Positions 58,431 through 64,000 of a stretch of DNA of 64,000 nt are shown here, in pieces. The DNA comes from an uncultured Pelagibacteraceae bacterium (GTDB taxonomy: Bacteria; Pseudomonadota; Alphaproteobacteria; Pelagibacterales; Pelagibacteraceae): NCBI GenBank assembly GCA_902632445.1, contig CACPCL010000001.1:62001-126000 (forward strand), given 5' to 3'. The notes under the pieces are model-generated. The model did not search any database. It saw only the letters and a list, made by a program, of their open reading frames with translations, and had not been told where the DNA came from. The position numbers and the translations under genes were made by a program. How positions within the stretch are numbered: position 1 is the stretch's first letter; every line of letters begins with the position of its first letter.

Positions 58431-59021
58431 TTAATATTTTAGATTTTCAACTGCATAACAATATTTTGAAAATCTAATTCTTTGAAAAGGAAATGTTTTT
58501 ACTAAAAAGTCTGTGTCTTTATCAATTGATGTTTTAATTTCTACAATAACTTTTTCATCAGCAGTGTAGCTATTATTTCTATAACTTTCATATTTTATAT
58601 TATTATCTATTGATAATCGTATTCCTTTGTACAAAATATATTCTCTATCATATGAAACAGTAAAAGTGGGAAAACAAGCTCCATATTGATAGTCTAAAAT
58701 CCCATTTTTTTTCAAATTATCTGCCTCTTTTTCGTTGATTACTTTTCGAGTTTTAAATCTTCCCTCAACTGATGAGTTTTTTACTTCTAAATAAAATTGA
58801 TTATCCGAATTATTTGGATAATTCCTAACTCTTATCTTTTTTCTTGGTACTATTCCCTCTATTGAATCTGTGTACATTTCTAGTTTTAAATTATCAAAAT
58901 ACAAACTTTTAATTTTTCTAGGTTCATAAAGATTTTTAGCAGAGTCTTTAAATAAAAAATCTTTAAATTCTATTAAATTTTCTGGCCTTAAATATAATTT
59001 TTCTTCAATTCTAAAACTCAT
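58431..59021 (-). CDS. VTC/TTM-fold polyphosphate-polymerase-like protein
   Basis: A 196-residue stand-alone VTC-domain protein, the fold of eukaryotic vacuolar polyphosphate polymerase, a triphosphate-tunnel metalloenzyme. Tunnel elements are all recognisable: FRIEEKLYL (3-11), SLYFDNLKLEMYTD, RKKIRVRNY with basic residues, FYLEVKNSSVEGRFKTRK, SYDREYILYKGIRLSIDNN, VIVEIKTS and RFSKYCYAVE. It has no membrane segment and should be cytosolic. Family members make polyphosphate from ATP, but activity is not known for such bacterial relatives. It abuts the CotH-pyrophosphatase gene with no gap and precedes valS by 8 bases. Confidence 0.85.
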   Translation of the reverse strand: MSFRIEEKLYLRPENLIEFKDFLFKDSAKNLYEPRKIKSLYFDNLKLEMYTDSIEGIVPRKKIRVRNYPNNSDNQFYLEVKNSSVEGRFKTRKVINEKEADNLKKNGILDYQYGACFPTFTVSYDREYILYKGIRLSIDNNIKYESYRNNSYTADEKVIVEIKTSIDKDTDFLVKTFPFQRIRFSKYCYAVENLKY

Positions 59022-62000
59022 TTAACTTCTTGGTCTCAATCCTGATTTTTTATACTCCCTGTTGGTATAATTAATCAATTTTTGAGCTTCGGATACGGTA
59101 CCTAATTTCTCAAAAGTTACTACATTTTTGCCTTTATAATTTTCAAACCAATTTGTTATTTCTTCTAATATTTTAGGATTTTCATTTTTAAAATGTAGTA
59201 AATTTTCATATTTTGAAAAACTATCATTTAATGGAACTGCCACTATCTTATCATCATTCTCTCCGAAATCTTTCATTCGAATAACTCCTAAAATTTTTAC
59301 TTTAACTACATCTCCTTGCGTCAGAGATGGGCCTAAAACTAATGCGTCAAGCGGATCACCGTCACCGCCAACTCTTAGTGGTAAAACTGTATTAGGAATA
59401 ATGCCATAGTTTACCGGGTAGGGCTTATAATTTATTGAACGAGGCTTACCCATATAAAACTCTCTATTAAGTGCTCCAGTCGCTGATTTGGAAACCTCCC
59501 ATTTTTCACTCATTCCCGCAGGTATTTCAACAACAACATTGACGGAGTTATCATTATTGAAAGCTTTATAATCTTTATGAAAATTTTTTATCACTGGTTT
59601 TCCATTTACTTGTTGAAGTTTTAATTCAGACAGATCGTATCTATCTCCAAAAGTAAAATTTTTAAGAATTTTATCTCCCTCATAAATTTTAGAAAATATA
59701 TCAATATCTGCTATTTTGTAAAAATTTGTACATTTTTTCTTTTTAACTTTTATGAGCGCACCTAGAAATTCTTGCTTTTTTTTATAAGCTGCAACGCATG
59801 TCTCTAAATTATCAAGATAAGCTTTATTTGCTTTTACAATAGAGCTATCTTTAGAAGCTATACCGATATTAGCATTCTTAACAATTATTTCGTTTAATTT
59901 TATGAAAGACTTTTCTCCAACAGATAAAGCTTTGTCTCCGCAATTTTTTAAGTTTAATTTTCCAAGTTCATACGATCCAGCTGAAAAATCAACGCAATCG
60001 TTTAGAGCGTATTCTATGTTTATTTTATCGATTTTAAGTCTTGAAAAGTCTACATCAAGCGCATCACTAAAAGAATTATTGATAGAAATTTCACTAATGT
60101 GCCCATCAACATTGATAAAATTAATAGTATCTTCACAGCTTGAATTAATTGCCTCAACTGAAAGTTTGCTAACTTTTAAATCAACAAATGATAGGCATCC
60201 TGTCAAAGTTTTATCGTTTATTGGATAGTTTTTTGGAAAAGTCTTTAAACTTAAATTGCCATTTTCAATAACATTAAAACCATTAAAAATAATTTTAAGA
60301 TCTTTTAATTCGCCACCTTTGAAATAAATTCTTGCACCAGGACTTTCCTGAAATATCTCTATTGTATTAGTATCCTCGTTTAATAAAACTCTAACATTTT
60401 TTTCTATAAAAATATTTGTATTTTTAAAATTAAGTTTTTTATATTCATCGGAAAAACCAATATTTGATAATTCAAATTTCTTACCAAGATACTGATAAGA
60501 TGATCCTTCTAAATTGAAATCTCCTTCTAATAAATCAGCAATATTGTTGTTTGAAAAATTAACTTTATCACAATTATTAGTTGATAAACTACACCTGATC
60601 AGGTCGTTATCTGTTACATCATGTTTAATTACATAAATGTTTGGCTCAACATCTTTAATATTTTGATAAAAAACTTCAGATATATTCTCAATAGGTTTAA
60701 ATTGATTATAAATTATATCTTCCTTATTAGCATAGTTTTTATAGTTATCTTTCAATAAATTTAAGTTTTTTTTAATTTTAAATAACTTATTTTCGATTTT
60801 TGAATCACTAATTATAATCCCTGATGATTCTAAATCTCTTTTAAAATTTTTAATATTTATTTCCTCAATTTTTTTTTCAAGTAGATCGAAGGATTTTAAA
60901 AAATCTTTCGAAACTGGTAATCTAAAGTTTCCTAAACTTAAATCAGCATCAATATTTGGATTGGCGTCATAATTAATTGGTTCAAAATATGAGTCAAAAG
61001 AATTCCAATAAAACTTCCTATTATTTGAAGCTAACCCATGATAGCTATTTGTAGATTGTAATAATAAGTTATAAATATTTAATTTTTCAATATTTTTTTT
61101 ATCAAATAGGCCTAGAAGTGTATTATCTAAATCGTATTCTGAATAATTATAATTATTAATATTTCCATCTTGAAACCTGTTAGCGTAATACAAATAAATT
61201 AAATTCAATTTTGACAGGGAGTCATAAGATATTTCTTTATAAATCTCATTTTTAACAATCAAATTAGCATTAGTAAGTTTTGCTAACATATATTTTGCTG
61301 ATTTATTAAGCAAAGGAACCACCCCAGCTGACCAATTACTAAGTTGATTATCTGGTATATTTTTTAAAGACTTCCAAAAGTATTTTTCATCTGACTCCAA
61401 AATTGGTCCCTCTCTCCTATTGTTAAATTCTAATAGTTCTTTTGATGCTTTTTCTTGAAAAAGCATTACAGACTCAGCTTTATTAATTTTAGCATTAACT
61501 TTTAAGGATCTAGGGGCAAGATAATCAAAGTTTCTTAGGAGTTGGGTTTGAATAATTACATCTTCAAGCACACCACGAGTATTAGGTCTTAATAATTTAA
61601 ATTTAGTAATTCCCCTTATATTTCCATTATCTAGATGAACATCTATACTCTGTAAAATGTAGTTATCATGTAAACTTATATGATCTTTTTGATCTCCACT
61701 GTGTCTTATTCGACCTGAATAAAAGCACTCTGAACCATCTTCAAAATATACAGTTACTTTTGCTTTAAATCTTTTTTTATAGATATCATCAATATATCTT
61801 GAGTTACTTGTAATAATTTTTATGCCATTTACTGTCCAATTTCTGTAATTATTCGTTTCAATATCAATCTTTTTGATTTTTAATTTATCGTAATTAACTA
61901 AAAAATTTTCATTTATTTCTGAATTACAGCCTTTAAAAATATTTTTTTCCTTTAATTCTGTATTTGCTATTACATTAGTTGAAGCTAAAACTAAAAAAAG

Positions 62001-62024
62001 AAAAAAAAAATAAACTTTTTTCAT
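59022..62024 (-). CDS. Secreted fusion: CotH-like region, beta-helix-like region and inorganic pyrophosphatase
   Basis: A 1000-residue protein with a signal peptide (about 1-21). Residues about 60-430 resemble CotH kinases (GRIRHSGDQKDH at 104-115, GITKFKLLRPNTRG, RREGPILE at 203-210, YHGLASNNRKFYW and FEPINYDANPN). Residues about 600-760 have a repetitive Asn/Ile pattern typical of a beta-helix. Residues about 828-990 are a complete family I pyrophosphatase: Glu833, Lys841, Glu843, Arg862, Tyr869, Tyr873, Asp888-x-Asp890-xx-Asp893, Asp919, Asp924, Lys926 and Tyr963-Lys964 match the E. coli catalytic set. It would hydrolyse pyrophosphate outside the cytoplasm. This combination is new to me. 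Confidence 0.82.
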   Translation of the reverse strand: MKKVYFFFLFLVLASTNVIANTELKEKNIFKGCNSEINENFLVNYDKLKIKKIDIETNNYRNWTVNGIKIITSNSRYIDDIYKKRFKAKVTVYFEDGSECFYSGRIRHSGDQKDHISLHDNYILQSIDVHLDNGNIRGITKFKLLRPNTRGVLEDVIIQTQLLRNFDYLAPRSLKVNAKINKAESVMLFQEKASKELLEFNNRREGPILESDEKYFWKSLKNIPDNQLSNWSAGVVPLLNKSAKYMLAKLTNANLIVKNEIYKEISYDSLSKLNLIYLYYANRFQDGNINNYNYSEYDLDNTLLGLFDKKNIEKLNIYNLLLQSTNSYHGLASNNRKFYWNSFDSYFEPINYDANPNIDADLSLGNFRLPVSKDFLKSFDLLEKKIEEINIKNFKRDLESSGIIISDSKIENKLFKIKKNLNLLKDNYKNYANKEDIIYNQFKPIENISEVFYQNIKDVEPNIYVIKHDVTDNDLIRCSLSTNNCDKVNFSNNNIADLLEGDFNLEGSSYQYLGKKFELSNIGFSDEYKKLNFKNTNIFIEKNVRVLLNEDTNTIEIFQESPGARIYFKGGELKDLKIIFNGFNVIENGNLSLKTFPKNYPINDKTLTGCLSFVDLKVSKLSVEAINSSCEDTINFINVDGHISEISINNSFSDALDVDFSRLKIDKINIEYALNDCVDFSAGSYELGKLNLKNCGDKALSVGEKSFIKLNEIIVKNANIGIASKDSSIVKANKAYLDNLETCVAAYKKKQEFLGALIKVKKKKCTNFYKIADIDIFSKIYEGDKILKNFTFGDRYDLSELKLQQVNGKPVIKNFHKDYKAFNNDNSVNVVVEIPAGMSEKWEVSKSATGALNREFYMGKPRSINYKPYPVNYGIIPNTVLPLRVGGDGDPLDALVLGPSLTQGDVVKVKILGVIRMKDFGENDDKIVAVPLNDSFSKYENLLHFKNENPKILEEITNWFENYKGKNVVTFEKLGTVSEAQKLINYTNREYKKSGLRPRS

Positions 62025-62028
62025 TAAA

Positions 62029-62646
62029 CTAACTTATTACAATATTAATTTTATCAACGAGGTTTAAATCTTTTAATTTTTTTTCAAATTCCTCAAGATC
62101 TTTTCTATTTTCAAAATTTAGTCGATATATAAAATCTTGATTTTTAATATCTATTATTGAATTTGATAATTGATCATTTTTTTCTACAAAGTCTATTCTT
62201 TCTTTTGCGGTAATCTCTAAAGTATTAGTTATATTACCCTCATTAAATGACATATTATAAAAAGATTTACCAAATTTGTTTGAAATTTTTTGGGCAAACT
62301 TGACTAATAATATTATTAATACTGAACAGATTAATAATTGAATTGCCCATTTTGTTCTTACACTTGTAGCGATACCAATAGTTATTAAGTCAAAATAAAT
62401 AATTAACTCTAAGGCGCTTTTAACTGGGTGTCTAAATCTTACTATTGATAAAGCTCCTATCATCCCAAGAGATAGTGCAATATTTCCTGAAATAGTTTTT
62501 GTTATCACGTAAGTAATCACTGGTAAGATCATGAATGATACTGTTTGAGCGTGAGATTTTGCCCATGCTTGACCCACATAAGTAAGAGAAAATCTTAAAA
62601 TCAAACCGCTTGAAACTAAGAGAATTAAAGGTTTTAGCTCATCCAT
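62029..62646 (-). CDS. DUF4956 inner-membrane protein
   Basis: A 205-residue protein with four hydrophobic segments in the first 120 residues, the conserved family element MIGALSIVRFRHPVK near 63-77, and a soluble C-terminal domain (about 135-205) that looks like the small ACT-type tail of MgtC-like proteins (DFIYRLNFENRKDLEEFEKKL). DUF4956 genes are known next to VTC-domain and CotH genes in other bacteria, but the protein's role is unknown; transport or signal sensing are guesses. It precedes the fusion gene by 4 bases and follows the CotH gene by 34. Confidence 0.85.
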   Translation of the reverse strand: MDELKPLILLVSSGLILRFSLTYVGQAWAKSHAQTVSFMILPVITYVITKTISGNIALSLGMIGALSIVRFRHPVKSALELIIYFDLITIGIATSVRTKWAIQLLICSVLIILLVKFAQKISNKFGKSFYNMSFNEGNITNTLEITAKERIDFVEKNDQLSNSIIDIKNQDFIYRLNFENRKDLEEFEKKLKDLNLVDKINIVIS

Positions 62647-62680
62647 GGTTCTTATATACTTTTATTAAGATAAATATCAA

Positions 62681-64000
62681 CTACTCACTTTTAAAATAAT
62701 GCATTGATATATTGGCTTTTTTTGTTTTTTTTTGGCCAAGCACTTGAAATAAGACCTTTTGTTTATCGATCAATAATTTTTGACACTCTTCTTTAAATAA
62801 ACAATCGAATTTAAGAATAATATTTTCTACAGAAGATTGGGGTTTTCTTCCTTCAATTAAAAATGGCTCTTTCAAAAAAATTTTATTTCCATCTGCAAAT
62901 TCGATTCCAGTAATTTCAACTGGTAAACGCTGTAAATTTGAAACACTCAATTCTAAAATGTTTTTGTTATAACTTGAAAAATATATATTTAAGCCTTGAA
63001 CAGGATTTAAAAAATCTTGTATTCTTATCCTATTTATTTCAAGTTGATCAAAAGAAAATATTTCTTTATTTGGATAATTAAGTTTTTGAATTTTATAGAA
63101 TTTATTAAATTCTCGTTTGTTTTCATTAATTAAATTCTCATAATATTTATCGTTAGTGTAATTATTTAATTGCTTTAAAAATGCTCTATGAAAATCTTTA
63201 TCTTTGTATAATAAATCTAAAAAGAAACTTTTATTTGCTGGTCTGTGAGGTTTATTATTTGTACTATCAATCCACCAAGAAAAATAATAATCCTTAAAAT
63301 TAAAACTTAAATCAACATGAGACTCTTTAGTAATTGGTTCTAATAATTTGGTTGAAGGATTGAAATAAAACTTTGTATCTCTATAATCAAATTCTGAGGA
63401 TCCAAGTAAAGCTCTTAAAACCATAATTTTTATTAGTTTATTTACATCAAATATTTCGCTAATTCTTTTTTCTTCATTTCTAAAAGCCTCTAAGAGATAA
63501 ATGGCTTCTTTAAGATATTTTTCTTGTGTTTTTCCCAAATTATTATTTGAAAATTGCACAGGTTGAATTTTTTCTCTCCAAAAATTGTCTTCAATTCCAT
63601 TTAACGATCCTGTTGCACCAAGCTTGTTCATTCTTTGAGAGTTTTTAAATTCTTTTAAAAAAAGATCTTTGCTGAAACCTACTATTGGGCCTTGCTCTCT
63701 TTTATTAATTTTAAGCACTTCATCAGATATTCCTCCCTGGAGCATATATGGACCAAGATTTTTTCCATTAACAACTAAATCATAATAATCTATACCGAGA
63801 CTTATTAAGTTTTCTTTTTCCAAAGCTTTCATCAAAACCCATTCATACATAAAGCTTGACGTTTCTGGAGTCTGTAAATTAAACCTATTTAGATTCTTAA
63901 AGGGTTTAGAATTATTTTTTACCTTTACCTTAAAAGACCATCTATTGCTATGAGTCCAATGGTCTGGAAAAACTCCTTTAAGCCTTACTTCAACATCTCT
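62681..64000 (-). CDS. CotH-like protein, C-terminal part (cut by window edge)
   Basis: The frame is open from the stop at 62681 to base 64000 with no start inside it that fits, because codons upstream of the ATG at 63850 continue the family sequence: RDVEVRLKGVFPDHWTHS, WSFKVKVKN, FKNLNRFNLQTPETSSFMYEW. These match CotH proteins (RLKGDW.DH..., W.F.VK, R.SLQTPETR...YEW). Further in are REQGPIVGFSKDLF and GSSEFDYRDTKFYFNPST. CotH kinases of spore formers phosphorylate coat proteins; for a proteobacterium the target is unknown. At least 440 residues belong to the window. Confidence 0.82.
   Translation of the reverse strand, partial: RDVEVRLKGVFPDHWTHSNRWSFKVKVKNNSKPFKNLNRFNLQTPETSSFMYEWVLMKALEKENLISLGIDYYDLVVNGKNLGPYMLQGGISDEVLKINKREQGPIVGFSKDLFLKEFKNSQRMNKLGATGSLNGIEDNFWREKIQPVQFSNNNLGKTQEKYLKEAIYLLEAFRNEEKRISEIFDVNKLIKIMVLRALLGSSEFDYRDTKFYFNPSTKLLEPITKESHVDLSFNFKDYYFSWWIDSTNNKPHRPANKSFFLDLLYKDKDFHRAFLKQLNNYTNDKYYENLINENKREFNKFYKIQKLNYPNKEIFSFDQLEINRIRIQDFLNPVQGLNIYFSSYNKNILELSVSNLQRLPVEITGIEFADGNKIFLKEPFLIEGRKPQSSVENIILKFDCLFKEECQKLLIDKQKVLFQVLGQKKTKKANISMHYFKSE

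Follow-up and report, generated by a model that had tools for sequence, protein, structure and literature searches.

In the pel operons of streptococci, clostridia and bifidobacteria, CotH proteins are associated with a polyphosphate polymerase and a DUF4956 protein, which are encoded as accessory genes of Gram-positive pelDEADAFG, with or without a DUF4832 gene (excerpted text of PMC7112168). Our search of the open-licence literature found no demonstrated function for this widespread CotH-VTC-DUF4956 set. Here we describe a five-gene island at one end of a 64,000-nucleotide stretch (the window; bases 62001-126000 of contig 1) from the genome of an uncultured Pelagibacteraceae (SAR11) bacterium, which is 835 kb long, in 33 contigs and ~80% complete. 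The island encodes a metallophosphoesterase-like protein (beyond the window), a CotH-related protein (CotH1), a DUF4956 membrane protein, a fusion of CotH, beta-helix and inorganic pyrophosphatase (PPase) domains, and a VTC-family protein. Its gene set and synteny, the catalytic residues of VTC and PPase, the CotH and beta-helix folds and the restriction of the PPase to the module were all examined by computation. We tentatively favor the reading, at somewhat less than an even chance, that this island of mobile appearance serves polyphosphate or pyrophosphate chemistry outside the cytoplasm. The association of CotH, VTC and DUF4956 is published, and a sequence-only reading of the window had noted it as known; as far as our searches go, what is new is a secreted PPase that is confined to the module across the 397 genomes and is part of a fusion in two of them, together with altered CotH active sites.

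The island resembles the pel set in the contiguity of genes for CotH, a VTC-type polymerase and DUF4956 (excerpted text of PMC7112168). It differs in that its CotH protein is fused to a beta-helix and a PPase, in that it includes a second CotH gene and a metallophosphoesterase-like gene, and in its setting in a Gram-negative-type cell. By eye, no pel genes lie beside it: the adjacent genes are valS, ilvD, tRNA genes, a helix-turn-helix (HTH) gene, DUF6134 and cysK (valS, ilvD and cysK named by eye), and contiguity with pelDEADAFG was thus not seen at the island flanks, the rest of the genome not having been searched for pel genes. The yeast VTC complex, with its catalytic Vtc4 (PDB 3g3q and others), shares the tunnel-domain profile and conserved basic residues with the island VTC protein, whereas the latter consists of one 196-aa domain, lacks SPX and membrane parts and has DUF4956 as its membrane partner. 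In trypanosomes, a VTC complex and a soluble pyrophosphatase occur together in the acidocalcisome, where the pyrophosphatase was detected by antibody but not in the proteome (PMC4263762). Common to both cases are a VTC-type polymerase and a soluble family-I PPase located in a non-cytosolic compartment (excerpted text of PMC4263762). The compartment is an organelle in trypanosomes, in contrast to the periplasm here. We take the trypanosome pyrophosphatase to be lumenal, and we know of no CotH or DUF4956 in acidocalcisomes. By analogy, the acidocalcisome is a precedent for the pairing of VTC with a pyrophosphatase.

The C-terminus of the fusion matched PF00719 with 112.1 bits (cut-off 23.5). Among the 397 genomes of the order Pelagibacterales, a profile of the module-linked PPases detected family-I PPase in six, and PF00719, which also matched in 9 of 14 control genomes, recovered the same six; the matches of G026 and G198 to the module-PPase profile extended past a stop codon, while those to PF00719 did not. 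All six PPases are physically linked to VTC/DUF4956/CotH genes, in four arrangements. Two are fused to the CotH-beta-helix protein, that of the window and that of G221, in which a 3.3-kb contig carries the fusion with VTC after it. The other four are encoded as separate genes, which lie upstream of DUF4956 (L056 and L077), between CotH and VTC (L071) or downstream of VTC (L058). When scored by DUF4956 detection alone, PPase was found in 5 of 57 genomes with DUF4956 vs. 1 of 340 without (Fisher p 2.8e-4). Of 289 genomes from the class, the module-PPase profile at E <= 1e-45 matched that of the window and no other.

Signal-peptide-like starts were identified by eye on all four separate PPases, and the N-terminus of the fusion is hydrophobic and signal-peptide-like by hydropathy. 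Five of the six PPases, including the window fusion, share all 14 catalytic positions, which we presume to be correctly mapped via E. coli numbering, while in the PPase of L170 Gln replaces one catalytic Glu. These residues support a PPase that is predicted to be catalytically complete; it is an optional part of the module and by sequence would be active outside the inner membrane. A housekeeping origin was considered and rejected: 391 of the 397 genomes had no family-I match, and 18 of 21 genomes tested, including that of the window, carry a membrane H+-PPase, the three misses being incomplete genomes. Given the hydrophobic N-terminus of the fusion, the rarity of the family in the order and the presence of H+-PPase in most tested genomes, the family-I PPase does not resemble a cytosolic housekeeping enzyme. 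A secreted PPase confined to the module is an independent genetic clue to pyrophosphate or polyphosphate beyond the membrane, and it yields a concrete prediction of the function of the set.

Profile searches detected DUF4956 in 57 of the 397 genomes, in 49 of them above the family cut-off. The survey gave 64 matches, of which 59 were read in the stretch of the window genome and in 57 others that were fetched; five contig-end matches (G248, G159, G292:C1, G216, and G108) were left out of the stretches. Thirty-eight of the 59 open reading frames (ORFs) were interior, i.e., >5.5 kb from both stretch ends. A VTC gene was found nearby on the same strand in 38/38, and both VTC and a CotH-beta-helix gene in 36/38; in the two exceptions the CotH-beta-helix gene is on the opposite strand (L045) or the DUF4956 and VTC ORFs are short (L049). 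A multi-phylum set was also analyzed, consisting of the 80 best loci among at least 577, nine of the 80 being from SAR11 and two labelled Prochlorococcus. In this set, 48 DUF4956 ORFs were interior, with VTC near 44 of these and a CotH-profile match near 18; both counts are lower bounds because ORFs were missed (the greedy ORF caller overlooked DUF4956 in ~10 of the 80 loci) and SAR11 proteins were the source of the CotH profile. Among these best 80 loci, the nearest named relatives of the window DUF4956 protein are in Pelagibacteraceae (SAR11) genomes. These results support the conservation of the VTC-DUF4956-CotH genes as a unit.

The VTC protein matched PF09359 with 83.5 bits (cut-off 23), and its ten tunnel-type residues (K62, R64, R66, K81, K90, R126, D139, E161, K163, and K186) are identical in 46/46 homologues of the order. 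A 17-row VTC profile matched yeast Vtc4 at E 4.3e-13, while the single-sequence search with the VTC protein matched no Vtc chain. Hydropathy analysis revealed no hydrophobic segment, consistent with a cytosolic protein. In the alignments, the VTC active-site columns are intact. The kinase PPK1 is patchy in the order (196/397 genomes) and PPK2 was found in 0/21 genomes tested; neither was matched in the window genome, which is ~80% complete. Substitution of VTC for PPK1 was considered and is unsupported, as PPK1 occurs in 23 of 57 DUF4956 genomes vs. 173 of 340 others (p 0.15).

Pfam gave no CotH match in the fusion or CotH1 of the window genome. Among 20 aligned fusion homologues, PF08757 was matched by seven and Beta_helix by six, the window protein not being among the CotH matches. 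The fusion family matched eight Firmicutes CotH proteins in a profile-profile comparison (hhalign; probability 98.4, E 5e-15). An AlphaFold2 model of the fusion, calculated from 20 rows, is confident in the CotH domain and in the beta-helix; the PPase part is poorly modelled because a single alignment row covers it. The only Foldseek matches of this model with E <= 0.001 were 5JDA and 5JD9, with the B. cereus CotH kinase 5JDA at E 1e-8, and VIA aligned 5JDA over 298 residues (Z 18.5, rmsd 4.5). As modelled, the fusion carries the CotH kinase fold. Its residues ~525-797 resemble polygalacturonases, alginate epimerases and tailspikes (VIA Z 16.4-20.2).

The statements on CotH active sites rest on alignments rather than on model coordinates. 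In 5JD9, we take D228 to be the catalytic Asp and D251 the metal-binding Asp, which by our count is 23 residues further on. The fusion shares with the Bacillus spore-coat kinase (5JD9/5JDA) the fold over ~300 residues and the metal Asp (D353), but is a secreted multidomain protein with Asn in the catalytic-Asp column and a conserved, family-specific His (H329) three residues after it. In 70 CotH-beta-helix relatives, which include partial ORFs, the catalytic column is Asp in seven, the +3 His is found in 64 and the metal Asp in 64, while the Firmicutes CotH proteins have the catalytic-column Asp in 7/8 and the metal Asp in 8/8. CotH1 was assigned by similarity to the CotH-beta-helix proteins, one of which (L058) matches PF08757 at 34 bits, and has an N-terminal hydrophobic anchor by hydropathy. 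It departs further from Bacillus CotH than the fusion does: in CotH1 and the two proteins most closely related to it (L061 and L066), none of which has a Pfam CotH match, Glu replaces both the family His and the metal Asp (3/3). Judging from the aligned columns, the CotH active site of the fusion is altered and the Glu substitutions of CotH1 are a consistent change. The Glu-type CotH1 subfamily (L066:3678-7266, L061:10430-11797, and L002:7682-10257) is found twice beside a metallophosphoesterase-like protein with incomplete motifs. CotH-beta-helix proteins of ~990-1125 aa with extra N-terminal regions also lie beside DUF4956 in Elusimicrobia/Bacteroidota-type records (L118:5779-9156, L131:10580-13585, and L135:325-3294).

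The sequence-only reading had tied a joint system to conservation of the genes in relatives and to active sites free of degeneracy. The former is borne out by the 36 of 38 interior loci that hold both VTC and CotH-beta-helix genes, and on the latter the invariant VTC residues agree with it while the two Glu of CotH1 do not. Its extracytoplasmic PPase also agrees with the enzyme described above, which appears catalytically complete, secreted by sequence and module-linked in 6/6 cases. Its active extracytoplasmic CotH phosphotransferases are at odds with the Asn that replaces the catalytic Asp in the fusion and with the Glu that replaces His and metal Asp in CotH1.

The DUF4956 protein matched PF16316 with 41.7 bits (cut-off 30.6) and contains a GALSIVRFR motif, of which R70 and R72 are invariant in a 50-row alignment. 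In a model from these 50 rows (mean pLDDT 85.5, pTM 0.67), hydrophobic helices flank the motif, with pLDDT of 58-71 immediately before it. The C-terminal domain (residues 137-205) is ferredoxin-like, with structural matches at Z 8.5 or less, and this modelled likeness may reflect a common arrangement. This pair of invariant arginines next to the membrane would be well placed for a substrate with negative charge.

The fifth protein matched PF00149 with 27.3 bits (cut-off 21.5) and has hydrophobic stretches at both ends by hydropathy. We take the metal motifs of metallophosphoesterases to be DxH, GDxx, GNH(D/E), and GHxH. Inspection by eye revealed neither the first Asp nor the final GHxH motif in the fifth protein or in its L066 counterpart, which had no Pfam match at E 0.01; the fifth gene therefore lacks the full set of metal motifs of a calcineurin-like metallophosphoesterase.

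We infer the polyphosphate product, its export by DUF4956, the CotH chemistry and the role of the PPase as follows. The cytosolic VTC-family enzyme would use ATP to make polyphosphate or a short oligophosphate. The DUF4956 protein, a neighbor of VTC across phyla, would help the anionic product to cross the inner membrane, a role proposed for the membrane part of the yeast VTC complex. In the periplasm, the CotH/beta-helix protein would bind or use the exported polymer, most likely as the donor in phosphorylation of a protein or glycan, because little or no ATP should be available in that compartment. Leftover pyrophosphate would be hydrolyzed by a PPase domain in the same chain or encoded alongside, which would remove an end product, pull the reaction and return inorganic phosphate (Pi) for uptake. 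Synthesis, export, periplasmic use and pyrophosphate clearance together form the simplest reading in which every intact active site has a role. In a more specific form, which we regard as rather unlikely, exported polyphosphate would be the energy-rich currency of an ATP-free periplasmic phosphotransfer, in which re-tooled CotH enzymes phosphorylate proteins or glycans of the surface and a tethered PPase gives irreversible transfer and Pi recycling; by analogy with PPK1, the conserved His beside the lost catalytic Asp would perhaps form phospho-His. If, as the island suggests, polyphosphate or pyrophosphate is processed beyond the inner membrane of these cells, the system bears on how secreted kinase-fold proteins could act without periplasmic ATP.

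Several observations weigh against this extracytoplasmic chemistry. Genomes with DUF4956 show neither an excess nor a deficit of PPK1, no usable structural match was obtained for the membrane part of DUF4956, and the CotH active sites depart from that of the known kinase, CotH1 further than the fusion. The PPase is found in only six of ~58 module genomes, so that the module would work without it elsewhere, and a search for the link outside the order, in the 80 multi-phylum loci, placed no PPase near any of the 70 DUF4956 ORFs called there. In addition, SAR11 and Prochlorococcus do not store polyphosphate, according to the excerpted text of PMC4525184.

A doubtful but serious contender is a glycan-modification module. 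In this case a surface polysaccharide would be phosphorylated or remodelled by the CotH/beta-helix protein, with VTC-DUF4956 in a supplying or regulatory role, and polyphosphate would be neither stored nor exported for its own sake. The likeness of the beta-helix to polysaccharide-active proteins (Z 16.4-20.2) and the adjacency of the Gram-positive counterpart set to pel polysaccharide genes (excerpted text of PMC7112168) argue for such a role, but by eye no polysaccharide genes lie directly beside the island, and a beta-helix fold by itself proves no activity. It is improbable that the secreted PPase frees Pi from environmental pyrophosphate and merely travels with a phosphate-related island in which CotH and VTC act separately. 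Phosphate scarcity in parts of the ocean (excerpted text of PMC4525184) and the optional presence and varying position of the PPase would fit such scavenging; its occurrence nowhere else in 397 genomes and its two fusions to a CotH/beta-helix protein would not.

A tethered PPase would also suit a pyrophosphate-releasing enzyme of another kind, such as a CotH-fold domain that carries out nucleotidyl transfer and is pulled forward by the PPase. SelO performs such transfer, 5JDA is by its title an AMP complex, and the catalytic-Asp column is changed; the reaction would, however, require a periplasmic nucleotide, which is not expected, and would leave VTC and DUF4956 unexplained, and we give it little probability. 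Equally slim is the prospect that VTC and PPase are the only enzymes, and that CotH1, the CotH domain of the fusion and the metallophosphoesterase-like protein act as scaffolds or sensors without catalysis. The Glu at both key columns of CotH1 and its relatives (3/3) and the metallophosphoesterase-like proteins that lack parts of the metal motifs point in this direction, but in the CotH-beta-helix family metal Asp and His (64/70 each) are conserved beyond the need of a bare scaffold.

DUF4956-CotH/beta-helix-VTC modules (type 1) are present in two Prochlorococcus-labelled contigs (L097:2245-5717 and L096:5743-9214). The former looks cyanobacterial because its flanks include a PipX-like gene (101 bits, below the NCBI cut-off of 125), and the module appears to move between SAR11 and Prochlorococcus. 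As it lies beside this gene in a Prochlorococcus-labelled contig, it is tempting, as a side hypothesis to extracytoplasmic polyphosphate or pyrophosphate chemistry, to link the module to the buffer of extracellular phosphate in SAR11 and Prochlorococcus. The system also bears on the form of phosphate kept beyond the inner membrane by both groups. Against this link, the buffer is tied to Pi and proton motive force rather than ATP (excerpted text of PMC7250820), polyphosphate is stored by neither group (excerpted text of PMC4525184), and the module is found in just 57 of the 397 genomes.

Table 1. Positions in the window of the island genes and of the domains of the fusion protein.
Feature	Position	Strand	Basis
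VTC-family protein, 196 aa	58431..59021	-	PF09359, conserved tunnel-type residues, Vtc4 profile match, hydropathy
Secreted CotH/beta-helix/pyrophosphatase fusion, 1000 aa	59022..62024	-	Pfam, profile comparison, AlphaFold2 model, Foldseek, VIA, hydropathy
Family-I inorganic pyrophosphatase domain of fusion (aa ~826-992)	59049..59549	-	PF00719
Right-handed beta-helix of fusion (aa ~525-797)	59634..60452	-	VIA; Beta_helix in homologues
CotH-fold domain of fusion (aa ~48-432)	60729..61883	-	5JDA by Foldseek and VIA
DUF4956 membrane protein, 205 aa	62029..62646	-	PF16316, invariant columns, model, hydropathy
CotH1, in-window part of 536-aa protein	62681..64000, on to L002:9292 (~window 64291)	-	Similarity, hydropathy

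An ORF check of the window recovered the four minus-strand ORFs of the sequence-only reading at the same coordinates, with the same intergenic gaps of 34, 4, and 0 bases (Table 1). The CotH gene cut by the window edge runs on past it and encodes 536 aa when completed from the adjoining contig sequence, and a fifth gene of 322 aa overlaps its start by 4 bases. The island sits between tRNA genes and valS: tRNA-Cys and tRNA-Asn, the HTH gene, DUF6134 and cysK follow beyond the fifth gene in that order, and valS is 8 bases past the VTC gene. The array does run up to valS, as that reading had it, but valS is outside the gene set, because seven relatives keep valS and none of the five island genes was found at the site.

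In these seven relatives, both the HTH gene and valS are kept, with none of the five genes in between (tblastn). The site is empty in one of them (G399), where the HTH gene and valS are ~316 bases apart; in the remaining six, 2 to 7.4 kb separates the two. Contents were listed for two of the six filled sites and consist, by eye, of a sugar-ABC-transporter-like cluster in G186 and an asparagine-synthase-like gene in G403. The G+C content of the island is 25.8%, compared to 28.2% for valS and 29.1% for the other flank. The HTH-valS stretch looks like a cargo hotspot next to tRNA-Cys and tRNA-Asn, and the five-gene set like an island of mobile appearance at a variable site. A trait kept by a streamlined genome, as had been suggested, does not agree with this mobile look, the variable site and the presence of the set in 57 of 397 genomes. 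In the window genome, which the tRNA search covered, the tRNA-Cys/tRNA-Asn pair beside the HTH-valS stretch lies at L002:10606-10804 (~window 65605-65803), the comparison stretches being L171-L177. A phage or plasmid origin was considered and set aside; plasmid records gave zero VTC matches, and 10 phage records matched the PPase domain at 32-37% identity.

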